Below are positions 1 to 63,925 of a DNA stretch of 64,000 nt, one piece after another; positions within the stretch are counted from its first letter, which is position 1; each line of letters opens with the position of its first letter. The notes under the pieces are model-generated. The model had not been told where the DNA came from and did no database searches. It saw only the letters and a list, made by a program, of their open reading frames with translations. A program made the position numbers and the translations under genes. The DNA comes from Phycisphaerae bacterium (lineage in GTDB: Bacteria > Planctomycetota > Phycisphaerae > Phycisphaerales > UBA1924), in contig JAUIES010000002.1 of assembly GCA_030429705.1 (NCBI GenBank), positions 312,001-376,000 on the forward strand, written 5' to 3'.

Positions 1-938
1 CGGACGACAGGATCGCTCACTTCGTCTTCACCCGCGACAATCTCGATAAAGATGTCTTCGAGCGTGGGCCGACGCAGTTCGATTCGCATCGGCGGAACCG
101 CCCCGGTCAGATCACGCATGACATCGGCTGGGATCGCGTCGTCCGAAATGGAGATCTCCCTCGCCGGGCCGACCTCCTGCTTGCTGACATGTTTGACACC
201 CGGCACCGCATGCAAGGGCGACAGATCGGCATTGGCATCCATCGGCTCAAACAGAATCGTTCGGGGGTCGTGCTGCTTGCGTATGTTCGAAAGCGTGTCG
301 TCGAGCACCTTCTGCCCGCGGCTGATCATCACGATGTGCTCGCACACCTGCTCGGCCTGGGCCATCACATGCGTCGAGAAGATGATCGTCTTGCCCGCAC
401 TGTGCTGTTCATCGATGAGATCGCGCAGCAGCCGCATATTGACCGGGTCGAGACCGCTGAACGGTTCGTCGAGGATCAACAGTTCCGGCTCGTTGATGAC
501 CGCCGCGATGAATTGCACTTTTTGCTGCATGCCCTTCGAGAGTTCTTCGCATTTCTTGTTGATGGTGTCGCCGAGTTCGACGCGTTCGAGCCACGACCGG
601 ACAGCCTTCTCGAGTTCCGCCCCGCCGAGTCCCTTGAGGTGACCCATGTAGCGAAGGAATGCCCCGACTTTCATCTTGCGATACACGCCGCGTTCTTCGG
701 GCAGATAACCGACGCGTTCGCGGGCTTCGACGGCGTTGCGTTTGCCGAGCACGCTGACCGTCCCCTCATCTGGAAAGAGGATCCCCATGATGGTACGAAT
801 CGTTGTGCTCTTGCCAGCACCGTTCGGGCCGATGAACCCGTAGATGGCGCCCGACGGCACTTCGAGATTCATGTTTGCGACGGCGATCTTTGGCCCGAAT
901 GTCTTGCGGACCCCGTCGAGTGATATCGCGCTCGTCAA
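1..938 (-). CDS. ABC transporter ATP-binding protein (3' part beyond window)
   Basis: This is the ATPase subunit of an ABC transporter, which hydrolyses ATP on the cytoplasmic face to power a membrane permease. Reading the minus strand, I see Walker A GPNGAGKST, the signature LSKGMQQ, Walker B LLILDEP followed by SGLDP, and the switch histidine in STH. After the nucleotide-binding domain comes a C-terminal extension of the DUF4162 kind found in export or antibiotic-type ATPases. The stop codon lies beyond base 1, so the gene is incomplete and a permease may follow outside the window. No ATG is in frame at the 5' end. I chose TTG at 936-938, which has a purine-rich stretch just upstream, but the start is uncertain. 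The gene is divergent from prfA, with 75 bases between the two starts. The substrate cannot be told from the sequence. Confidence 0.9.
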   Translation of the reverse strand, partial: MTSAISLDGVRKTFGPKIAVANMNLEVPSGAIYGFIGPNGAGKSTTIRTIMGILFPDEGTVSVLGKRNAVEARERVGYLPEERGVYRKMKVGAFLRYMGHLKGLGGAELEKAVRSWLERVELGDTINKKCEELSKGMQQKVQFIAAVINEPELLILDEPFSGLDPVNMRLLRDLIDEQHSAGKTIIFSTHVMAQAEQVCEHIVMISRGQKVLDDTLSNIRKQHDPRTILFEPMDANADLSPLHAVPGVKHVSKQEVGPAREISISDDAIPADVMRDLTGAVPPMRIELRRPTLEDIFIEIVAGEDEVSDPVV

Positions 939-26486: not shown

Positions 26487-29400
26487 ATGAAAAAGACCAC
26501 CATGATCGTGGCCGCCGCAGGGCTGGCCCTTGCTGCAGTCGCGCACGCCGATTCAGAATGGGCTGCTGCTGTGAATGGCAATTGGGGACTCGCGAGCAAC
26601 TGGAACCCCGCCGATGTGCCTGACCTGACGACAGAGACCGCCACCATCGCTGTGGCTGGAACTTACTCCGTGCTCCTGGGCACGGGAACCTCCACTTTCA
26701 TTCCGGTTGAGGGGCTCGTCCTGTCTAACCCAGATGCCACGCTCGATATCCAGGGGGGGTACACCCTTTCGCTCAACGGAGGTTTATTCATCAACAACGG
26801 GCTCATCCGCATCGACAGCAATGGCAGCACTGCTGACGGTGTGCTGTTGATCGACAGCAACACCACGCTGAACGGGTCAGGGATCGTCCGCCTGAATCGA
26901 AACACCGATGCGCGCATCGACTCGGGTGTCGGTGCCACACTCACCAACAACTCGACCATTGATGGTGGCGGACTCATCAATGCGGCGATGAACAATATGG
27001 GAATCGTCGAGAGTAATGTTTCAGGCGCCATCATCGAGTTGCAGACCAACGACAAATCAAATTCTGGCACTTTCAGATCTGTGAACAACGGACTCTTGTT
27101 GATACAGGGCATTGAGATTGACAATACTGGCGGACTCATCCATGGTGACGAGTCCATCGTGCGGTTCAATGCTGGTACGAGTACTGTGCTCAACGGCACG
27201 CTGCTCTCGACAGGCGCTGGTCAGGTCAATGTCACCGGCTCATCGACACTCGTCTTGGATGGTGTTACCAATGACGCTCTGATCAATCTCGAAGGCGGCA
27301 GCACGCTGTCCATCGCGGGTGATCTGCCCAACAGTAATCTCATCGTGGTCGACTCCAACGGCAGCACCGCGGACGGTATCCTTCACTTCTCGCAAAGTGG
27401 CACCGTCAGTGGATCCGGCACCCTCCGCCTCTTCCGCTACCCCGATGCACGCATGACTTCGGACCCTGGCGTTGTCGTCACCATCGGCCCTGATCAGACC
27501 CTCGACGGTGCGGGCCTCCTGCAAGCCGCCATCGTCAACAACGGAACCGTCGAAAGCGTCGTGGGGGGCGCGATCATCGATTTCCAAACCGAAGACAAAG
27601 TCAACAATAACCTGGTGCGGGCGATCAATAGTGGATTGATCAACCTTTCTGGTGTGACGACGACCCAGTCAGCCGCGGGCATCCTGCGAGCCGACAACGG
27701 CATACTACTGGTCAACACTGGTGTGACCACTATCGACGGCGGTCTCATCGAAGCGGTCAATGGCGGACTCATTCGTGTCGCATCTCCCGCCGATCTCACA
27801 CTTGACGGTGTGAATCTTAATGGCCCGATGAACATCGAAGGCGGCGCGATGGTCTTCCTCGACACCGATTTCACCAATAACGGCACCGTCACCGTCGATT
27901 CCAACGGCAGTACCGCCGATGCAATCTTGACCACACTCTCCGATATCGTGATTGACGGCACAGGCTCGGTCGTGCTCAACCGGTACCCCGACGCACGACT
28001 GGAAACCACACCAGCCACCACGCTCACGCTTGGTTCCAGTCAGTCACTCGTCGGCAGCGGAATTGTCCATGCGGCATTGATCAACAACGGCCTCGTTGAA
28101 ACTTCGGGCAATGGGGTCATCATGGACTTCCAGACTGAGCCTAAAACCAACAACGCCACCATGCGAGCGACCAACAACGCTACGCTCAATATCTCCAGCG
28201 TGACGACGACTCAGTCCCCCACCGCCACACTGGAAGCGGACGGGGGCACGATTCTCGTCAATGGCTCCGGCGACACACGACTTGAGCAAGGCCAACTGAC
28301 CACCGCGAATGCCGGCGCAGTCCGCATCATCTCATCTGGCAACTTCGAAGTATTCAATGTCGTGTTCAATGGCGACATGTATATTGAAGGCAACGCAACG
28401 CTGACTGTGGACACCACGCTCACCAACAACGGCACGATCGTTGTCGATTCGAACAATAGTTCAGCAGATGCCTTTGTGACGACCATCGGCAGCGCGTCGA
28501 TTGATGGTACCGGCACGATCACCCTTGCTCGCAACACCGATGCACGCCTCACCACACCCGAAGGTGAGACCATGACGCTGGGTGCGGGTCAGTCGGTGCT
28601 CGGAGGCGGTGTCATCAACGCTGCGATCATTAACAATGGATTGATTGATTCTGATGTCACTGGAGCAGTCATTCAGTTTGCCGACGAAGATAAAGTCAAC
28701 AACGGCATCATGCGAGCTTCGCTCGGCACGCTCAACATCACCGGTGTTACAACTGACCAATCTGGCGGCGGCACGATGGAAGCCACAGACGGTGGGCGCA
28801 TACAGGTTCAAGCAACTGTTGCGCAAACCCGCGTGACCGGCGGGTCAATCGTGACCACGGACACTGGGCATGTTCGTGTTGTCAGCGGTGGTGCTCCAAC
28901 GCTTGAAGATGTCCTTTTCGACGGAACCATGAATGTCGAAGGCAACGGTGTCGTCATTGTTGAGGGTGCGCTGACGAACAACGGCATCATCAATATCAAC
29001 AGCAATGGATCGTCTGCTCACGCGACAATCGATGTCGCAGACGGCGATGCCATCGGAGGTGTTGGAGTCATCAATTTGCTCAGGGGTGCTCATGATGCCC
29101 GCTTGACCTCGCTTGGTGTCTCCACGCTGGGCAATGGGCAACTCGTGACAGGCATTGGCACTGTGTATGGCGGCTGGGCCTGGCGCGGGACTCTTTCACC
29201 TGGTTTCAGCATTGGCACGATGGTCAATGAGGGCATGATCAGCATGCGACCGCCAGCAAACCTTGCGATCGAATTGACCTCACCGATCAACAACCAGAAC
29301 GATCGCATCATCGGCACGGGTTCATTTGAACTCGACGGTGCACTCGACATTTCGTTCCTCGACTACACACCCGTCAAGAATCACATCTTCCGCATTCTCG

Positions 29401-29678
29401 AGGGCTCATCGATCACGGGGCAGTTCGCCGAAGTCAATGGCCCTGTTCTGACCGATGGTCTTGTCTACGGCATCAAGTACGACCCGACCTTCGTCGAGAT
29501 CCGCATCACCTGCGGGCCGGACCTCAATCTCGACGGACTGCTCGACTTCTTCGATGTGTTGTTCTTCCTCGATGCCTTCACCAACGAAACACCAATCGGC
29601 GACTTCAATGAAGACGGCATCTATGACTTCTTCGATGTGCTGGCGTTCCTCAACGCGTTCACGCTCGGCTGCCCTTGA
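26487..29678 (+). CDS. Secreted repeat protein with C-terminal dockerin-like domain
   Basis: This is a 1063-residue exported protein. The signal peptide MKKTTMIVAAAGLALAAVA is cut near HADS. The body is made of about five units of 179-184 residues, each marked by the motif DSNGSTAD followed by a DGTGT-like strand, a D-A-R motif and NNG turns, so it is probably a long beta-helix or beta-solenoid. The C-terminus carries two calcium-loop-like segments, DLNLDGLLDFFDVL and DFNEDGIYDFFDVL, forming a dockerin type I-like pair that ends in GCP. Such tails are frequent in planctomycete secreted proteins. Start ATG with GAAGGAG upstream. Surface attachment is a plausible role; no partner cohesin is in the window. 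Confidence 0.88.
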   Translation: MKKTTMIVAAAGLALAAVAHADSEWAAAVNGNWGLASNWNPADVPDLTTETATIAVAGTYSVLLGTGTSTFIPVEGLVLSNPDATLDIQGGYTLSLNGGLFINNGLIRIDSNGSTADGVLLIDSNTTLNGSGIVRLNRNTDARIDSGVGATLTNNSTIDGGGLINAAMNNMGIVESNVSGAIIELQTNDKSNSGTFRSVNNGLLLIQGIEIDNTGGLIHGDESIVRFNAGTSTVLNGTLLSTGAGQVNVTGSSTLVLDGVTNDALINLEGGSTLSIAGDLPNSNLIVVDSNGSTADGILHFSQSGTVSGSGTLRLFRYPDARMTSDPGVVVTIGPDQTLDGAGLLQAAIVNNGTVESVVGGAIIDFQTEDKVNNNLVRAINSGLINLSGVTTTQSAAGILRADNGILLVNTGVTTIDGGLIEAVNGGLIRVASPADLTLDGVNLNGPMNIEGGAMVFLDTDFTNNGTVTVDSNGSTADAILTTLSDIVIDGTGSVVLNRYPDARLETTPATTLTLGSSQSLVGSGIVHAALINNGLVETSGNGVIMDFQTEPKTNNATMRATNNATLNISSVTTTQSPTATLEADGGTILVNGSGDTRLEQGQLTTANAGAVRIISSGNFEVFNVVFNGDMYIEGNATLTVDTTLTNNGTIVVDSNNSSADAFVTTIGSASIDGTGTITLARNTDARLTTPEGETMTLGAGQSVLGGGVINAAIINNGLIDSDVTGAVIQFADEDKVNNGIMRASLGTLNITGVTTDQSGGGTMEATDGGRIQVQATVAQTRVTGGSIVTTDTGHVRVVSGGAPTLEDVLFDGTMNVEGNGVVIVEGALTNNGIININSNGSSAHATIDVADGDAIGGVGVINLLRGAHDARLTSLGVSTLGNGQLVTGIGTVYGGWAWRGTLSPGFSIGTMVNEGMISMRPPANLAIELTSPINNQNDRIIGTGSFELDGALDISFLDYTPVKNHIFRILEGSSITGQFAEVNGPVLTDGLVYGIKYDPTFVEIRITCGPDLNLDGLLDFFDVLFFLDAFTNETPIGDFNEDGIYDFFDVLAFLNAFTLGCP
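26814..29040 (+). repeat. Five in-frame coding repeats of about 545 nt
   Basis: The landmark codons for D/N-S-N-G/N-S begin at 26814, 27351, 27897, 28446 and 28998. The spacings are 537, 546, 549 and 552 nt, all multiples of three. Similarity is clear at protein level (VDSNGSTAD, NTDAR/YPDAR, AAIINNGLV, VTTTQS) and weaker at DNA level, so the duplications are old and under protein-level selection. Confidence 0.85.
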
Positions 29679-30230: not shown

Positions 30231-30695
30231 ATGCCGACCGCGCCGCGGAAACTGGACATCACGACCAAGGGGCTCACTTCCTGCGTATGCGGGTACGACC
30301 TGACGGGGATCGCGCGCGACCACAGCGCCAAGTGCCCTGAGTGTGGCGTGCTGCTGTCGAGTCTGAGGGTTCGCCGATCGCGCTACACGCACAACTGGCT
30401 TATGTACACCATCGCGATGGTTCCTTCGATGTTGATGATCGGAGGTTTCCTGGCGTACCTGATTCTGGGCGGCGAAATAGTCAAGCCCGAGTTCGCCAAT
30501 ATGCTGTTCGTCGTTGCGTTCATCTGTTTGGCGCTCGGTTCGTTCCCGGCCTGCATCATGGTGGTCGAGGGGATCGAGCCCAAGATACCACTCGGAAGAC
30601 GCGTGGCGCTCGATCTGCTGGGCTTTGTCGTGTGCGCCGCCTTGAATGTCGGTGTGTTTCTAGCGTTCATGATGTTGGTGCGGACGATCACCTAA
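30231..30695 (+). CDS. Zinc-ribbon small membrane protein (CGYDLTG family), copy A
   Basis: This 154-residue protein has an N-terminal ribbon CVCGYDLTGI...KCPECG, whose four cysteines could bind zinc. About three hydrophobic segments follow (SMLMIGGFLAYLILGG, FVVAFICLALGSFPACIMVV, LDLLGFVVCAALNVGVFLAFMML). The open frame reaches back to 30006, but ATG 30231 (MPTAPRK) is the start giving the family's usual length. It is the first of seven related genes between 30 and 37 kb. Function unknown. A topology with the ribbon in the cytoplasm is inference. Confidence 0.8.
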   Translation: MPTAPRKLDITTKGLTSCVCGYDLTGIARDHSAKCPECGVLLSSLRVRRSRYTHNWLMYTIAMVPSMLMIGGFLAYLILGGEIVKPEFANMLFVVAFICLALGSFPACIMVVEGIEPKIPLGRRVALDLLGFVVCAALNVGVFLAFMMLVRTIT

Positions 30696-30703
30696 AGCAA
30701 CGA

Positions 30704-30732
30704 CAGCGGCTGCCGCAGTGCGACAGCCGCTG
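30704..30732. terminator. Perfect 9-bp hairpin between convergent genes
   Basis: CAGCGGCTG (30704-30712) and CAGCCGCTG (30724-30732) are perfect complements around an 11-base loop. It starts nine bases after the zinc-ribbon gene A and lies 36 bases before the 3' end of the convergent secreted protein gene. It may serve both directions, although no T run is present. Confidence 0.6.
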
Positions 30733-30767
30733 GATTGATGTACATGACAAGCGATTCGACCAAGGTC

Positions 30768-31817
30768 TCAACCGCCGCCGGGCACCGGACCTGCGACCAT
30801 GTTGACACGCCGCAACGGGAACGCCGGGTCGGTGTCGTCGATCGGGATGTGGAAGAACGGCAGCGGGTCGGGGCTGTCCGGGCCGATCCAGACGCCGTCG
30901 TGGAGCCCGCTGTCAAATCGGACGCGGTGTCCATCCGGGGGGGCGAGCGGGCCACCGATCGCGAGTTCGGCGTGCATGCGTTCGATGGGGACCCCGGTGA
31001 AGGTACCGGTGAAATGCTGATAGATGCCGCCGCCGCGAAGCCGCACGGGTGGGTCCTGGTCAGATGAACCGCCGCCGCCTGCCGCCAGTCGCACCAATGC
31101 CCACTCGGTGAGTCCGATTGGGTTCGGAACATCCGGTTCAACCGGCAACTCGACAAAGCCGAAGTGGCCTCCGATGGGGCTGATGAGCAGATCGCCATGG
31201 GGTGTGTGCTGATAAGCAAAGTACGCGGCATTACCGAAGACATACCGGTGGACATCGTCAGGGCTGACGCGCGACGAGGCGACGCGAAGGTACCTGCGAA
31301 AACACAGATACTCATCGCTGACCTCGCGGACGGTGATATCGATAGCCGAGTCTGACGGACGGCGTTCGACCAGGCCGCTGTCAAACTCGACGAGTTCATC
31401 GTCAACGCGCACATGGAGCACCATGCGATGCATGGGCGTGCCATCGCCGGACCGAGCGAATGTGTATCGGCCGGTGCCGGTCACGAAGATCTCGTCAGTC
31501 ACGCCGCCACCATGCGGGCTGGTGACGAGCCAGTTGATATTGCGGATGGCAAAGGCGCGATGGTCGCTGTCGCTGCTCGTAGCGCCGATGAACATCGTGC
31601 CTCGGACGGCTTCACTGAGAGCATCGAGGATATCGCACGCTTCCGCGGCTTCGAGGTAATTTGAAGCGAAGTCGAGTCGGTGCAGCCGCACGCCATCGCT
31701 TGCAGCAGCATCGGTCTTGACGAGATCGGTGACCTGTGCAGCCCCAATCGGAGCAAGCACCACGAGTGCGACGACCGCAGAGACGGTTCGTGTGACGAGA
31801 GAACGACGGTTTGACAT
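30768..31817 (-). CDS. Secreted protein of unknown function
   Basis: This is a 349-residue exported protein that I do not recognise. A signal peptide (MSNRRSLVTRTVSAVVALVVLAPIGAAQ in two parts, cut after GAA) leads a beta-rich body without cysteine clusters or obvious catalytic motifs. Features include GTGRYTFARSGDGTP, FVELPVEPDVPNP and a Gly-rich AAGGGGSSDQD loop, and the body ends in GPVPGGG. The ATG at 31817 sits six bases after AGGAGG, a strong ribosome site; the upstream in-frame start at 31850 can be discarded. The region 31818-32015 upstream holds no gene and presumably its promoter. Confidence 0.75.
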   Translation of the reverse strand: MSNRRSLVTRTVSAVVALVVLAPIGAAQVTDLVKTDAAASDGVRLHRLDFASNYLEAAEACDILDALSEAVRGTMFIGATSSDSDHRAFAIRNINWLVTSPHGGGVTDEIFVTGTGRYTFARSGDGTPMHRMVLHVRVDDELVEFDSGLVERRPSDSAIDITVREVSDEYLCFRRYLRVASSRVSPDDVHRYVFGNAAYFAYQHTPHGDLLISPIGGHFGFVELPVEPDVPNPIGLTEWALVRLAAGGGGSSDQDPPVRLRGGGIYQHFTGTFTGVPIERMHAELAIGGPLAPPDGHRVRFDSGLHDGVWIGPDSPDPLPFFHIPIDDTDPAFPLRRVNMVAGPVPGGG

Positions 31818-32015
31818 GGTTGACCTCCTTGGCTGGCCCGAACGGCACACAGGGTCAGGTGCCCGAGTGTACCAGAAGTCGCGAACGGTTCCAAGCCGGT
31901 TTCGTCGGTGGCTGTGTCACCCTCGAGAAGGGCGTTTGTGCCAAGATGTGCTGGCCTCATGTGGCCATAACCGGCACATTCAGCGTTGTCTGTGTCCCCC
32001 TACCATCACGGTGAC

Positions 32016-32483
32016 ATGCCAGAGCCGACTGCACAACCTGACACCCCCCCGACCGGGCCGACGGTATGTGTGTGCGGCTATGACCTGACGGGGTTACCGA
32101 CGGGCGAAGGGACGAAGTGTCCGGGGTGCGAGGCGAGCGTCGCGAGATCGACAGGGAGTGCGTCACGGGCAAAGTGTGCTTGGATCTGGCTGGTCGTGGC
32201 TTTCACGCCGCCGTTCGCACTTCCTTTTGTGATGGTCGTCGCATCCATGCTATCGATCAACGCGAACTTCAAGAGCATCCTGAATGTGTTGATGTTCTTG
32301 GCCTTTGCATGGGCCGTGCTGGGTGCGCTGCCGTCGTGCTTGATATATGCGTGCTGCAGTTGGAGGCATAAGCCGCTGCTCCTGCGGATCCTGATCGCCG
32401 TGGGGCTGAGCATGGCTGTACTCGTCGTTTCGGAGGCTTTTCTGGTTGCTTCCGCCATCCTCGGTGCCATACTCAGTTCTTGA
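32016..32483 (+). CDS. Zinc-ribbon small membrane protein (CGYDLTG family), copy B
   Basis: This 155-residue relative of copy A has an N-terminal ribbon CVCGYDLTGL...KCPGCE, in which the last pair reads CPGC rather than CPEC. Three hydrophobic helices follow (FTPPFALPFVMVVASML, LMFLAFAWAVLGALPSCLIY, ILIAVGLSMAVLVVSEAFLVASAI). ATG 32016 was chosen so that the protein begins with a short Pro/Thr-rich tail like the other copies. It is followed on the same strand by copy C after 36 bases, so B and C are probably co-transcribed. Confidence 0.8.
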   Translation: MPEPTAQPDTPPTGPTVCVCGYDLTGLPTGEGTKCPGCEASVARSTGSASRAKCAWIWLVVAFTPPFALPFVMVVASMLSINANFKSILNVLMFLAFAWAVLGALPSCLIYACCSWRHKPLLLRILIAVGLSMAVLVVSEAFLVASAILGAILSS

Positions 32484-32519
32484 GCCGCGTCCGGAGTCTC
32501 ATCGTACGATGTATCTGGA

Positions 32520-32975
32520 ATGACGACACCGCCTTCCAAACTTGTCACCCCCCCAGCCAGCCCAACAGTCTGCGATTGCGGCTATGAACTGACGGGTCTT
32601 GTGCTCGATCATGAGTCCAAGTGTCCGGAGTGCGGGTTGTTGGTCCGGCAGATTGTGGGGTCTCGTTCGATCTTCGCCAATCCGTGGGTGGTGGCGGCGA
32701 TGATCCTGTCGCCCGGGCTGTCGTCGCTGCTGTTTGGGCTGGCGAGCGGGGTGTCGTGGGCGGCGGGGATGCCGTGGAGCCCGTTCGTATTGATTGTGCT
32801 GGTTTGGATCTTGCTGCTGCTGGTGGTGTCGCTCCCGGTGTGCATCTCGCTTGCGATCAGCCTGACCGGCAAGATCGGCGGCCTCGCCCATGCGGTGCTG
32901 TCGGTCTGCATAGTTCCGATCGCGATCGCGGCCAACCTCGTGCTGACCATGATGACCTTATACTTGATCGGCTGA
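32520..32975 (+). CDS. Zinc-ribbon small membrane protein (CGYDLTG family), copy C
   Basis: The 151-residue protein has the ribbon CDCGYELTGL...KCPECG at residues 18-39 and three membrane helices (WVVAAMILSPGLSSLLFGL, FVLIVLVWILLLLVVSLPV, AVLSVCIVPIAIAANLVL). It keeps the family's Tyr and Leu positions in the ribbon, with Asp changed to Glu in CGYEL. It is convergent with copy D. Confidence 0.8.
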   Translation: MTTPPSKLVTPPASPTVCDCGYELTGLVLDHESKCPECGLLVRQIVGSRSIFANPWVVAAMILSPGLSSLLFGLASGVSWAAGMPWSPFVLIVLVWILLLLVVSLPVCISLAISLTGKIGGLAHAVLSVCIVPIAIAANLVLTMMTLYLIG

Positions 32976-33012
32976 TGTGCTTTCATGAGCGGCAGACGCG
33001 GTCTTGAACGCA

Positions 33013-33843
33013 TCAATCGACAGGCGTATGCAGCGATTCGCTCGATGCCCGAGCACCACGCCCCCACCCACACTCCGGGCAGCCGTGTTCGAGGTCGCGT
33101 TTGAGGTCGTAGTTGCAGTGCGGGCAGTGGCCTTTGCGGCGGCGGCGGTGTTGCTTGAACAGCGGCAGGCCGATGAAGGGGAGAGTCCAGAACGCGCCGT
33201 AGAAGCCGGTGTTCAACGCAAAGCCAGTCCAGGCCGGTTGAAGTGGCAATACGAGCGCCACCGACATTGGGCCTTTCCAGGTGTTGGCTGTGCGCGAGAA
33301 GGTTACCCAACTCAAGGAATGATACTGCGGTCCATTGCTCGTATCGATGACCACATCGCTGAGAAAACTTCGCAGGGGCCAGCCGACGCCCGTTCGATAG
33401 ATCCTGGACTCTGTCGAGGTGTCTAGAACTGACGGCAGCCCGTGTCCTTTGATGGTCACCGTGGCTCGCCCATCGCGTAACGGGCCCGAGATGATCTCCG
33501 CATCGAGTCGAACCGGAGGTCTGTCTGGTTGAGTAGCGTGTTGCCATTCTTCCTGCGCCAAGTATTCGTCGGCCAAGCCCCTTGCCCAATCGCCTAGTGA
33601 ACCGTCGACATCGAGCCGCAAGAGCCGCCAAGTCTCGAAAGCTCGAATACCGTTTTCTCCTCGCGTAAGCTCTATGAAATACGGCTCATCAATAGTAAAA
33701 GAAACCGACGGCGTTGACACTCTCGGCTTGAGCAACTCGGCCCACGCCGCTATTTCCAGTCCCCACGCGACCATCCATGTCGTGATCGCTCCGAGCAGAA
33801 CGCAAAGCCCGAGCCGGATGATGAGCGATCGCCGTGACCGCAT
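33013..33843 (-). CDS. Membrane protein with C-terminal zinc ribbon, copy D
   Basis: This 276-residue protein has a different plan from its neighbours. An N-terminal helix (IIRLGLCVLLGAITTWMVAWGL) is followed by an extracytoplasmic domain of about 170 residues with no recognisable motif. A second hydrophobic segment (GFALNTGFYGAFWTLPFIGLPLF) comes next. At the C-terminus, after a His/Arg/Lys-rich stretch, stands the ribbon CPHCNYDLKRDLEHGCPECG, which aligns with the CGYDLTGL ribbon of the other copies but reversed in protein position. This type is common in planctomycetes. Function unknown. Confidence 0.75.
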   Translation of the reverse strand: MRSRRSLIIRLGLCVLLGAITTWMVAWGLEIAAWAELLKPRVSTPSVSFTIDEPYFIELTRGENGIRAFETWRLLRLDVDGSLGDWARGLADEYLAQEEWQHATQPDRPPVRLDAEIISGPLRDGRATVTIKGHGLPSVLDTSTESRIYRTGVGWPLRSFLSDVVIDTSNGPQYHSLSWVTFSRTANTWKGPMSVALVLPLQPAWTGFALNTGFYGAFWTLPFIGLPLFKQHRRRRKGHCPHCNYDLKRDLEHGCPECGWGRGARASSESLHTPVD

Positions 33844-33907
33844 GGGATGAGTCTACCAGAGCCCCGCCCGTCGGCCAATGGCCGTTTTCCGCCGTCTCCT
33901 GAGGGGG

Positions 33908-33929
33908 TGCGGGGGAACCCTCCCCCGCA
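33908..33929. repeat. GC-rich perfect palindrome in the gap between divergent genes
   Basis: TGCGGGGG (33908-33915) and CCCCCGCA (33922-33929) pair perfectly around AACCCT. It is in the 5' regions of copy D (-) and the FN3-like gene (+), so it is not a normal terminator position. It could be an extragenic palindrome or an operator. Confidence 0.5.
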
Positions 33930-34055
33930 TACGCAACGCCCGAACTACACAATCCTGCTCGGTTTAGCCCAAAGCCGTCGGCACACCCTCTGCTCTTACG
34001 CGATCACGCAACAGAATCCAGCGTACAGGCTCAACAGGTGTGTGTGATTGCTCTG

Positions 34056-34244
34056 ATCACACGCGCGGGCGAGGCGATCGCAGGCAAGAAAGGCTCGTTC
34101 GCGGACGCGTGCGTGCCGATCGCGGGCGTGTATCGGACCCTCGCTCGCGCTTCGGGCTCGTTCGCAAGTGTGTGGAGCGTGATATCAAGCGTTTATGGTG
34201 CGATCGCGGGTGCGCACGGGGCAGATTTCTTGCGTTCTGTTGCA
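34056..34244 (+). repeat. 63-nt (21-codon) periodic repeat, three units, in frame with the FN3-like gene
   Basis: The units start at 34056, 34119 and 34182. Read in the frame of the downstream gene, they give I-T-R-A-G-E-A-I-A-G, I-A-G-V-Y-R-T-L-A-R and I-S-S-V-Y-G-A-I-A-G. Units 1 and 2 then continue into G-S-F-A-(D/S)-(A/V)-(C/W). Units 1 and 2 share GGCTCGTTCGC exactly, and elsewhere many differences are at third codon positions. The third unit decays after AHGAD. The open frame runs without stop from 34038 into the FN3-like gene. Confidence 0.7.
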
Positions 34245-34313
34245 TTGTTGGCCGATTGCACCATCACGAACACCGCCAGAGCCCCCCCAAAGGGGGCCAG
34301 CAGGAGACCAGCC

Positions 34314-35003
34314 ATGGCCCGCACCGTGCCCGAGACGCAGCAGGACGCAATTGACTTCTTTGCCAATCGGCTCGATGACTGGGCGGCGTCGCCCGCCGCG
34401 ATCGGTCTTTCGAGCGAGCAGGTCGATGCCATCACGGCTCGTGTCGCCGAGGCCGAAACTCGGCTGGCCGAGGCGCAGGCCGCAAGAATAGCCGCCAAGA
34501 CCGCGACGCTCGCACTCTCGCAGGCCATGGCCGACCTGCGCGGCCTCGGCGGCGACCTCGTCAAGACCATCCGCACCTACGCCGAGACGAATGACGATCC
34601 GGCGGTCTACACGCGAAGCGGTATCCCCCCCGTGTCGCCCCCGACCCCCGTCGGTCCGCCCGAGCAACCGCGCGATATCGCAGCGACCATCACCAATTCG
34701 GGCCCGGTCCGCGTGTCGTGGCGAGCCAGCCGCAGCACCGGCACACAGTTCGTCGTCGAACGACAACTGGTCGGACTCGATGGCGTCGCCGGCGACTGGA
34801 CATTTGTGGCGGTGGCGGCCGCACGCTCGATCGACGACACCAGCCTGCCGATCGGTTCCGCATCGGTCACCTACCGCGTCTACGCCCAACGAGCCAGCGG
34901 CCGCAGCGATGCGTCAACCTCGACCACCCTGACCTTCGGAACGGTCCCCCAGTCTTCATCAACCTTGTCGGCTACCCACGCCGCACGCCAACGCGCGGCG
35001 TAA
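34314..35003 (+). CDS. Fibronectin type III-like protein
   Basis: This 229-residue protein has an N-terminal helical half (TVPETQQDAIDFFANRLDDW, then Ala/Glu-rich heptads to residue about 100). A Pro-rich hinge (PPVSPPTPVGPPEQP) follows, then one fibronectin-III-like beta domain (SGPVRVSWRAS ... FVVERQLV ... VTYRVYAQRA). No signal peptide is visible from this start. ATG 34314 is preferred because AGGAG lies seven bases upstream. The same frame is open from 34038, so a longer protein with the 21-residue repeats at its N-terminus cannot be excluded. I recall similar planctomycete/verrucomicrobial proteins of this size, all uncharacterised. It is flanked by zinc-ribbon gene clusters on both sides. 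Confidence 0.75.
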   Translation: MARTVPETQQDAIDFFANRLDDWAASPAAIGLSSEQVDAITARVAEAETRLAEAQAARIAAKTATLALSQAMADLRGLGGDLVKTIRTYAETNDDPAVYTRSGIPPVSPPTPVGPPEQPRDIAATITNSGPVRVSWRASRSTGTQFVVERQLVGLDGVAGDWTFVAVAAARSIDDTSLPIGSASVTYRVYAQRASGRSDASTSTTLTFGTVPQSSSTLSATHAARQRAA

Positions 35004-35116
35004 GCAGGTTCTAACCATCAGCGAACAGCCAACAGGTCGGCGGCCCGTGGGGCTGGGGCGGAAGCGACCACCGCGCGATGAACTGAATCGCCGCGTTTTG
35101 CTCGAGCCACGAAACG

Positions 35117-35605
35117 CTAGAACTTGATTTCGAGGAGCCGAAATGCCCCGAGGAAGAACACCTTGTTGTTCACGAACCAGAAGCCCACAGTGAGCACGAT
35201 GCCCAGGCCGAACCGGGCAAACCCTGACGCTGGCCGCAGGTGTTCGCGGGTCAGAAGCACACTCGCCAGAATGGATGTCGCCGATGAAACAATGATGAAT
35301 CCGATCATCACAAAACCAACCACATCAACCGGCGGAAGTTGCATGACGACCGTGCTGGTGAGGATGTCGACCACACGAACGATCAGGCAGATGAACCAGA
35401 AGACCGGCACCGGCGAGACGCCGATCAGCACCATCACCCACCACCGCTGCAGCCACGGCGTCTTCGGTTCAAGATCCGCCACCACCAACCCGCACTCAGG
35501 ACACTTGGCCGCCGCGTCTGCGGGCAACCCCGTCAGGTCGTAGCCGCAAGTGCAAGTGGTCACCGCTGGGAGAGGCAGGTCGGATTTGGCCGGAGCGGGG
35601 GGCAT
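35117..35605 (-). CDS. Zinc-ribbon small membrane protein (CGYDLTG family), copy E
   Basis: The protein has about 162 residues. The ribbon CTCGYDLTGL...KCPECG is followed by three membrane helices (WVMVLIGVSPVPVFWFICLIV, VDVVGFVMIGFIIVSSATSI, FGLGIVLTVGFWFVNNKVFF). ATG 35605 is used; TTG 35611 lies two codons earlier. The DNA over the ribbon is very similar to that of copy F, its same-strand neighbour, which points to tandem duplication. Confidence 0.8.
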   Translation of the reverse strand: MPPAPAKSDLPLPAVTTCTCGYDLTGLPADAAAKCPECGLVVADLEPKTPWLQRWWVMVLIGVSPVPVFWFICLIVRVVDILTSTVVMQLPPVDVVGFVMIGFIIVSSATSILASVLLTREHLRPASGFARFGLGIVLTVGFWFVNNKVFFLGAFRLLEIKF

Positions 35606-35695
35606 GGTCAAAGAAGTCTATCGCGGGGCGACCGAGCCACCAGCTCGAAATGGGTTCGCCACTCTCACTGTCATCGCAACACACGAAACCTCGCT

Positions 35696-36151
35696 TCACA
35701 GGACGAGCCAGCCAATCAACAAAATGACCGGCCATGGAATGAGGCAGGCGACGGAAAGCAAGAGAAACTGCATGAGTTTTTGGTGCCGCCGAGTACTTGT
35801 TGACATCGTGAGGCGAACAAATCGGTTCGCGGCAGGGATCGCAAGCACCCACTGTGAGAGTGCAGCGAGCAGATATAACACGAGATCGACCCAAATATTC
35901 ACTTGCCAGGGCTGTGCCAGGGCTGACAATAGAACACCTGACAGACCCAGCATCAATGGTGTGAAACACATCATGATCATAAAGCTGGGCTGGTCGTACA
36001 ACGGTGGTCTGGTCGGCAAATCACTGATGACCACCCCGCATTCCGGACACTTAGCGGCCGCATCCGACGGCAAACCCGTCAGGTCATAGCCGCAGGTGCA
36101 AGTCGTCACCGCGTCGTTCGGGGGTTTGGGTTCAGTCGGTGAGGGGGGCAT
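35696..36151 (-). CDS. Zinc-ribbon small membrane protein (CGYDLTG family), copy F
   Basis: The 151-residue protein has the ribbon CTCGYDLTGL...KCPECG and three helices (FMIMMCFTPLMLGLSGVLL, LVLYLLAALSQWVLAIPAA, LLLSVACLIPWPVILLIGWLVL). Across the ribbon (about 36030-36113) it matches copy E (about 35490-35567) at most nucleotides, the closest pair of the family in this window. It ends in hydrophobic residues right at the stop. It is followed by E after 90 bases. Confidence 0.8.
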   Translation of the reverse strand: MPPSPTEPKPPNDAVTTCTCGYDLTGLPSDAAAKCPECGVVISDLPTRPPLYDQPSFMIMMCFTPLMLGLSGVLLSALAQPWQVNIWVDLVLYLLAALSQWVLAIPAANRFVRLTMSTSTRRHQKLMQFLLLSVACLIPWPVILLIGWLVL

Positions 36152-36214
36152 CGGAATAACAGTGTATCACGACATCGTGAATCCTCGCCGCAATCTCCAC
36201 CAAGCCAAACCCGT

Positions 36215-36676
36215 TCAAAAACTGTTCCGCATCGCCGTGATCACCGCAAGCACCAGCCCGTTGCCCATGCCAAGCAGCAACACAACGGAGACCGCGATCA
36301 TCAAACGGTTGAAGAACCCCTTCGCCTCGGACCGGTCCGCAATCAACAAGTAACACGCCGGGACCGACACGAACCAGAACAGCCCGCCGCCGAGCAACAC
36401 CAGCGCCATCACGCTGAGATCACCGACAAACGAGCCCGGTAGCAAGCTGCCGACCACCATCGCCCCGATCAATACCATCGCCGGCAGGAAAAACGCCACG
36501 GACGCGATCCACCCATGCACGAACCACGGCTTGCGCGGCTTGAGCGATCGCAACGCCACCCCGCACTCAGGGCACAAGGCGTCCGCACCCCGAGGCAACC
36601 CGGTCAGGTCGTAGCCGCAGTCGCACACCGACACACCGGGTGGCGGCGCATCAGGCATCGTCATCGATGAAGTCAT
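36215..36676 (-). CDS. Zinc-ribbon small membrane protein (CGYDLTG family), copy G
   Basis: The 153-residue protein has the ribbon CDCGYDLTGL...LCPECG and three or four helices (WIASVAFFLPAMVLIGAMVVG, LSVMALVLLGGGLFWFVSVPACYLL, LMIAVSVVLLLGMGNGLVLAVI). ATG 36676 was kept; two further ATGs lie within the first seven codons. It is the first of the G-F-E run on the minus strand and sits downstream of polA on the same strand across a 138-base gap. Confidence 0.8.
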   Translation of the reverse strand: MTSSMTMPDAPPPGVSVCDCGYDLTGLPRGADALCPECGVALRSLKPRKPWFVHGWIASVAFFLPAMVLIGAMVVGSLLPGSFVGDLSVMALVLLGGGLFWFVSVPACYLLIADRSEAKGFFNRLMIAVSVVLLLGMGNGLVLAVITAMRNSF

Positions 36677-62953: not shown

Positions 62954-63925
62954 ATGTGCCCGTCTGCCCGAGGACCGACTATTCAGGGACCACCCGAACC
63001 ATCGCAGACCAACCCAAACGCGGCACAACCAGAACCGCCGGCTGCCATCGGTGCATCACTATTGCTTCCAGCGGGTGTCAACTGCGCCCACTGTGGCTAT
63101 GAACTGCAAGGACTCAATCGTCATTCGTGCTGTCCCGAATGCGCCACGCCAATTGAACAATCGTTGCGTGGCGATGCGTTGATCTTTGCTGACCCGCAGC
63201 GGTTGCGCAGGCTCCGATTGGGTGCCGAGTGCCTTGCCTGGGGCGGGTTCGCCTGGGTCTTTTTGGCATTTCTGGGTTGGGCGATCCGAGCGTTCCTGTC
63301 CATGCTCATCCCAAGCGACCCATTTTTCGCGACAGCTCTTGTATTGATTGTGCATGTCGCTGTTGTGTCAGTTCTCTGTTTCGGAGTCTGCATCGTCACG
63401 AGCGAAGATGAAACAGACCCACATACACACCATCGGCGCTGGTTGAAACCCGCCACCCGTTGGATCATGCTCCCAGGGTATGTTATTCAGGAACTGTCAG
63501 TTCTGATGTTCTTCGCCAGCACTGGTGGCGGTGGAATCGGGGGGACGATCATCATGTTCACGCTGACCACGAGTGTGTTCGGCTGGGCACTGATGTTCAA
63601 GTGTGTCGGCAACCTCTATCGAAGGGGGCGTGTCCGGCGCCTCGCGCAATGGGCTGACTTCGTTTCGGTTTCGCTGTTCTTGAGTTTCGGTCTTGCGTGT
63701 TTCTTTTGGCTGATCATCGGGATGCTCGCGCTTGTGCCGCCGAGTGCAGCGATGGGTCTGGGCGTGCTTCTTGGTCTTCTGCCAATCGGGATCGCCGTTC
63801 TGCTCGTCGCCACGCTCCTCGCTGCATTTGTTGTGCTGGTTGAACTCGGCTCGTGGATTCAAAAAGCGCGTCAGCGTTCTGAAGCCATTCACAACGCCGC
63901 CAAAAACGCAACGAGTTTGTTCTAG
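62954..63925 (+). CDS. Zinc-ribbon polytopic membrane protein (CGYDLTG-related), copy H
   Basis: The protein has 323 residues. A Pro-rich N-terminus is followed by the ribbon CAHCGYELQGLNRHSCCPECA at about 43-63, clearly related to that of the 30-36 kb cluster. At least six hydrophobic helices follow (FAWVFLAFLGWAIRAF, VLIVHVAVVSVLCFGVCIV, LSVLMFFASTGGGGIGGTIIMF, LFLSFGLACFFWLIIGMLAL, GVLLGLLPIGIAVLLVATLLAAFVVLV). It is twice the length of the small copies, so it forms a long variant. Function unknown. ATG 62954 has no strong ribosome site. Confidence 0.8.
   Translation: MCPSARGPTIQGPPEPSQTNPNAAQPEPPAAIGASLLLPAGVNCAHCGYELQGLNRHSCCPECATPIEQSLRGDALIFADPQRLRRLRLGAECLAWGGFAWVFLAFLGWAIRAFLSMLIPSDPFFATALVLIVHVAVVSVLCFGVCIVTSEDETDPHTHHRRWLKPATRWIMLPGYVIQELSVLMFFASTGGGGIGGTIIMFTLTTSVFGWALMFKCVGNLYRRGRVRRLAQWADFVSVSLFLSFGLACFFWLIIGMLALVPPSAAMGLGVLLGLLPIGIAVLLVATLLAAFVVLVELGSWIQKARQRSEAIHNAAKNATSLF

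Follow-up and report, generated by a model that had tools for sequence, protein, structure and literature searches.

Putative zinc-ribbon membrane proteins encoded by clustered, apparently mosaic genes in a Phycisphaerae bacterium

Introduction

A four-cysteine ribbon located directly before a bundle of membrane helices is known from PqiA, and the HVO_2753 family comprises small soluble proteins. In the Rhs/CDI toxins, hsdS and pilin variation, constant and variable ends occur among paralogues and are joined by recombination. In this work we analysed a stretch of 64,000 nucleotides (hereafter the window; positions 312,001 to 376,000 of the forward strand of contig JAUIES010000002.1, assembly GCA_030429705.1) from a Phycisphaerae bacterium of the order Phycisphaerales, which contains a 6.5-kb cluster of genes for ribbon-bearing proteins with predicted transmembrane (TM) helices at window positions 30231-36676. 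The nearest known layout is that of PqiA/LetA (YebS; PF04403), in which the ribbon directly precedes the membrane-helix bundle, as it does in the cluster proteins. Comparison of the cluster genes with their relatives points to a mosaic structure, with well-conserved ends joined to strongly diverged membrane parts.

Results

The first-pass annotation of the window had described a family of seven paralogues, A to G, and a longer eighth relative, H, and all eight were recovered as open frames at the places where it had put them. The family itself held for six genes: A (30231..30695, plus strand, 154 amino acids (aa), with an N-terminal CxC ribbon), B (32016..32483, plus strand, 155 aa, a CPGC variant), C (32520..32975, plus strand, 151 aa), E (35117..35605, minus strand, 162 aa counted from an internal ATG), F (35696..36151, minus strand, 151 aa) and G (36215..36676, minus strand, 153 aa). 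These six A-type proteins, identified by open frame, ribbon pattern, TM prediction and profile, have a proline-rich leader followed by the ribbon CxCGY[DE]LTG(L/I)...CP(E/G)C and by three predicted membrane helices, within a total of 151-162 aa. D and H bear the ribbon, but they are different proteins. All four ribbon cysteines were invariant in 14 aligned copies. The profile built from these copies detected the cluster genes at E 3e-42 to 4e-52, values that are circular because the same genes built the profile; a ribbon-less tail relative absent from it (C4:204950-205243) still scored E 3.2e-9. The AlphaFold2 model of G, obtained with G and five other window paralogues as input, was weak (pLDDT 65, pTM 0.28) and contained three long helices. 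Over the 3.49-Mb genome (8 contigs), the pattern CxCGY..L..G gave 15 matches and its reversed control none; the sites fall into three clusters, located in the window (6), at C4:202-209 kb (7) and at C4:1662.8-1663.8 kb (2).

DNA similarity among the A-type genes extended from about position -85 to the last part of the ribbon, beyond which it dropped towards background. Comparison by segments (copies other than a2 and t) revealed values above the 99.9% null level in 23 of 78 pairs for the leader (-72..0) and in all 78 for the ribbon, as compared with none at +150..222 and a single pair at +300..372. Mean tail identity among 13 copies was 17.6%, with 8.7% expected by chance, and it was uncorrelated with ribbon DNA identity (rho 0.064, with 706 of 2000 permutations as high; copies other than a1 and t). 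The closest of the 78 ribbon pairs, c-e from the second cluster, had 95% identical ribbon DNA and 23/25 identical codons in that segment, with 18% identity and 5/17 codons in the tail; similarly, pair E-z showed 88% identity in ribbon DNA and 17% in the tail. For the cluster genes other than a1, t and x, identical codons amounted to 891/1424 in the ribbon (540 expected) and to 471/1398 in the tail (434 expected). Some selection must act on the tails, since three predicted TM helices and a length of 151-162 aa are kept in the six window copies despite the low identity. Altogether, these comparisons show that A-type genes are mosaics, in which a conserved end, made up of leader and ribbon, is attached to tails that have diverged strongly.

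Gene D (33013..33843, minus strand) encodes a protein of 276 aa, in which an N-terminal TM helix is followed by a middle domain with a GWP motif, a cluster of arginines and, at the C-terminus, the ribbon. A second TM helix before the arginines is below the prediction threshold in D and above it in the relatives D' and D49. Alignment with D', its counterpart in the C4 block (L016:6335-7210), revealed DNA identities of 84% in the 85 nucleotides upstream, 80% in the N-end and 86% in the ribbon end. In the middle part DNA identity was 59%, as compared with 58% for shuffled sequence, and this part is homologous at the protein level (53/165 aa). When only positions coding for the same residue were considered, identical codons were found at 37/49 positions in the ribbon end (18.2 expected) and at 14/50 in the middle (17.5 expected; Fisher P 2.8e-6). 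Such uneven synonymous divergence within one gene points to recombination, since selection on the amino acids alone does not yield it. The comparison shows that D-type genes, too, are mosaics, in this case with conserved N- and ribbon ends joined to a strongly diverged middle domain.

The sister block spans C4:201-209 kb, and a small third cluster lies at C4:1662-1664 kb. In all three clusters the left-hand copies are read rightward and the right-hand copies leftward, and the two large ones have a common order of ribbon genes (plus), D-type gene (minus), FN3-like gene (plus) and ribbon genes (minus). The FN3-like gene of the window (34314..35003, plus strand, 229 aa counted from an internal ATG) has its closest paralogue (55%) in the C4 cluster. 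Furthermore, a GC-rich repeat that appears hairpin-like by eye is located upstream of D (33901..33928, plus strand), and the four genomic copies of its 21-base core, allowing up to 2 mismatches, all lie in the two large clusters. Based on the common gene order, the closest FN3-like pair and the confinement of the repeat to both blocks, we conclude that the window cluster and the C4 block arose by duplication of one block. Signs of decay and fusion are seen in the C4 block, where one gene has two ribbons, one copy is truncated and one tail lacks a ribbon. E and F had been described as near-identical in DNA over the ribbon owing to a recent tandem duplication, a proposal at odds with their values of 83% in ribbon DNA, 14/25 identical codons and 13% tail identity, and with the closer c-e pair. 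A promoter-like hexamer (TAnnnT) was present 5-11 nucleotides before the start in 11/13 cluster genes (12 if a1, here taken from L016:5218, the codon after the ATG, starts at the ATG itself, L016:5215) and at the same position in 4/46 predicted window genes, the pattern having been derived from the cluster genes themselves.

Two observations concern the other clusters. The frame of the truncated ribbon gene (L016:11253-11543) runs into an intergenic palindrome of the GGGGGAGG type, which is dense in the C4 cluster. Beside the third cluster, L017:6613-9570 encodes two consecutive similar proteins rich in motifs that look by eye like EF-hand DxDxDG motifs.

The CxC spacing of the A-type ribbon is a variant of a CxxC ribbon found across the order, CxxCGY[DN]LxG, with which the window family shares the four cysteines, CGY[DE]L..G, CPEC and a TM helix in frame. 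Gene H (62954..63925, plus strand) combines a CxxC ribbon with a longer tail and 4 predicted TM helices, and resembles the ribbon-TM proteins found in arrays of relatives; a profile of H and similar proteins from three other genomes aligned with the A-type profile at 97.8% probability, the aligned part being limited to 30 columns of the ribbon. The topology of the module was studied on 71 distinct ribbons from 29 of 31 hand-chosen loci, a set in which arrays are over-represented and frames are read from the first possible start. A membrane helix was predicted in all 71 frames, at a distance from the ribbon of no more than 60 residues in 60 frames and of no more than 30 in 55; for comparison, any helix was predicted in 134 of 261 predicted genes of the own-genome loci. 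The ribbon preceded the nearest predicted helix in 48 frames and followed it in 23, and C-terminal ribbons lay close to the protein end, with a median of 12 residues beyond the last cysteine. These data show that, in the predicted proteins, the ribbon can stand before or behind the membrane part, and that the membrane parts cannot be aligned with one another. The linker between ribbon and helix was net basic in 56 frames and net acidic in 5, and by the positive-inside rule the ribbon would be cytosolic. The data fit an order-wide module consisting of a membrane-tethered, probably cytosolic four-cysteine ribbon, putatively a zinc binder, and they bear out the suggestion of the first-pass annotation that a conserved soluble ribbon stands beside free-running membrane parts.

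Regarding its distribution, the CxC type is rare, being found in 5/41 genomes of the order including this one, and none of the others has more than 3 sites; the only CxC match in G033 results from reading a CxxC ribbon one residue too late. The CxxC ribbon was detected in 36/41 genomes, with up to 38 sites in one of them among the matches listed. When genomes sampled evenly across the phylum were searched with a slightly tighter pattern, it was present in 3/4 genomes of the order and in 0/75 genomes outside it. The pattern without its last glycine gave 9 sites in 8/75 genomes outside the order, and its reversed control 6 sites in 5/75. In a collection of 84,980 species, from which near records of this genome were possibly left out, 10 stretches matched the peptide pattern, of which 5 were relatives, all from Phycisphaerales or Phycisphaerae assemblies; among viral contigs 11 stretches matched and none was a relative. 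On this basis the ribbon module appears to be order-specific. Its copies also cluster in relatives: another ribbon site lay within 3 kb for 36/148 sites, as compared with about 2.2 expected. Such neighbouring sites occurred in 10 of the 18 genomes analysed, a set that includes G022 with 8 unpaired sites and omits G029 and G038, with one site each. At one of the loci with paired sites (G006:C28) the two ribbons are in one frame.

Two further arrangements were observed in the loci analysed. At L053:570-4884, in the genome that contains the window, six consecutive genes encode proteins that are about 190-220 aa long and resemble each other at the N-end. In another genome, a frame that is ribokinase-like by eye (L074:9864-11537) continues into a ribbon and membrane helices, which may represent a fusion or a missed start.

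The first-pass annotation had also raised the possibility that ribbon copies are flanked by the FN3-like gene. This family is present in 14/41 genomes with a patchy distribution, and it reaches 44 scattered matches in one of them (G023); in this genome it has 11 near-full-length copies, also scattered, among 13 matches in all. Six ribbon loci had an FN3-like gene within 3 kb, as compared with 1.66 expected over 9 genomes, and all six belong to two genomes, the family being scattered elsewhere, which does not support a dedicated link. In this count the window cluster was entered as one point, 3 kb inside the cluster; G003, G027 and G031 (one match each), some of the partial FN3-like matches in G008 and G018, and G014 and G024, whose FN3-like genes are present and whose ribbon sites are not among the matches listed, were omitted. 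The FN3-like gene looks like one that multiplies on its own. The label itself reflects a weak likeness alone (neogenin, E 0.84): the protein gave no family match above cut-off, and its four weak PHROGs matches (E 0.0055-0.05) are of unknown function. At about 220 aa (window 34314-35003; G023, G010), it probably consists of a helical N-part and an FN3-like C-part.

Searches of ten window proteins against Pfam and NCBIfam gave nothing above the curated cut-offs, whether nucleic-acid-binding or other, and PADLOC yielded 0 families at E 0.1. The ribbon proteins had no match in PHROGs. A full-text literature search returned no paper on the ribbon family by title, although other wording could find more.

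Two other genes complete the neighbourhood. Between A and B, an open frame on the minus strand (30768..31850) encodes a 360-aa protein of unknown function with no family match in four libraries. Directly before the cluster, a repeat-rich protein of 1063 aa (window 26487-29678) has a signal-like N-end and duplicated DxNxDGxxDFFDVxxFL motifs at its end, which is possibly a calcium-binding or sorting tail.

Discussion

The mosaic structure described above led us to a tentative reading, to which we give somewhat less than an even chance, in which recombination would have exchanged variable membrane or outside parts on a constant cytosolic ribbon that docks a shared partner. Ectopic recombination through the conserved ends would either swap the variable parts or homogenise the ends; the cytosolic ribbon would bind zinc and dock one shared partner; and the membrane or outside part would be pressed to vary, as for proteins that face changing envelope ligands such as phage, bacteriocins or proteins of neighbours. 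In a stronger form, which we consider unlikely, the clusters would be an envelope diversification system in which ribbon and promoter stay constant and middles or helices are swapped, possibly via inversion between opposite copies; convergent copies would then continue to signal to one partner, or to be anchored by it, with their middle domains and helices being exchanged.

Several results weigh against segment exchange. Just past the ribbon (+72..144), 14/78 A-type pairs are still above the null level, so that some pairs lack a sharp boundary between segments. The cluster ribbons (copies other than t) are also matched in codon use by those of eight other genomes, with values of 0.53-0.67 as compared with 0.42-0.47 expected, the cluster ribbons among themselves reaching 0.684 with 0.422 expected. 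Much of the synonymous conservation of the ribbon thus reflects codon preference, and the A-type codon figure for the ribbon overstates exchange, for which reason the exchange reading relies on D versus D' and on the leader DNA. Conservation of the latter, in turn, may be held by promoter function. In the runs test (copies other than a2 and t), P was below 0.001 for the whole cassette, 0.008 for the ribbon and 0.16 for ribbon third positions, a weak result as far as the ribbon is concerned. Ribbon likeness was not clearly higher within a cluster (P 0.10), and strand side predicted it (P 0.0035), as expected after block duplication. Furthermore, some tails in arrays of relatives stay similar (127/208 aa in the L071 pair, 79/182 in L074), giving these arrays the look of ordinary tandem duplication. 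Such data lend themselves to a quite possible alternative, a birth-and-death family derived from old duplications, both in tandem and of blocks; constraint would then act on ribbon and promoter alone, hydrophobicity would be all that is required of the tails, and no segments would be exchanged. The truncated, fused and ribbon-less copies of the C4 cluster, the ribbon codon preference common to several genomes, the weak homology of the tails above chance and the partly plain tandem arrays of relatives are all in agreement with it. On the other hand, the non-coding DNA upstream of D and D' is 84% identical, yet their middle parts are at DNA background with chance-level codons (14/50, 17.5 expected), and relaxed amino-acid selection cannot cause such uneven synonymous divergence within one gene; the c-e pair, with its contrast between ribbon and tail codons, also argues against it.

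Other explanations concern the function of the proteins. In immunity-type arrays, the variable helices of small multi-TM proteins would each neutralise one membrane-active toxin and the ribbon would be an adaptor. Protein size, the three-TM layout, the individual promoter-like sites and the variable membrane part would suit this proposal, as would a putative likeness to colicin immunity proteins; we regard it as improbable, given that the ribbon proteins lack PADLOC and PHROGs matches, that viral contigs hold no relative, and that no toxin family was found in the ten scanned window proteins, the rest of the neighbourhood not having been scanned for toxins. Basic linkers, together with the fact that four-cysteine ribbons often bind nucleic acid, could indicate a tether of DNA or RNA to the membrane, but the positive-inside rule explains the basic residues and no nucleic-acid-binding family matched above cut-off in the same ten proteins, which makes this a remote prospect. 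Even less probable is a role as PqiA/LetA-like membrane subunits of lipid transport, suggested by a profile search of solved structures in which YebS (9n8w) appeared at E 0.0081 through a weak 12.9-bit stretch over ribbon and TM part. The ten window proteins gave no PqiA match at E 1 and no MCE family match, PF04403 run over the genome finds only C8:239343 and misses the ribbon genes, and hhalign with a PqiA profile of 10 sequences reached 33%, over 25 ribbon columns only, instead of extending through the TM part.

The ribbon module is of interest because, with several to many copies per genome in the order, it points to a large number of uncharacterised membrane proteins for which one cytosolic partner may be common. 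Through the mosaic clusters there is direct access to two questions, namely what binds the constant end and to what the variable end responds. Should the exchange prove real, diversity of envelope proteins would be made here with no toxin, pilus or restriction gene recognisable among the proteins scanned.

In comparison with known systems, the cluster proteins differ from PqiA/LetA in their about three TM helices, their lineage-specific clusters and the lack of a Pfam match. Their likeness to the small zinc finger HVO_2753 (PF07754 / NF041909) consists of weak ribbon matches (E 0.065-0.18), whose best scores of 13.1 and 12.9 bits are to be compared with cut-offs of 80 bits (NCBIfam) and 33.2 bits (Pfam), and members of that family are without the TM part of the cluster proteins. 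Although no toxin, restriction or pilus family matched in the scanned proteins, and although the cluster encodes membrane proteins for which we infer exchange, the combination of a constant end with a variable end is the feature in which these genes resemble the Rhs/CDI toxins, hsdS and the pilins.

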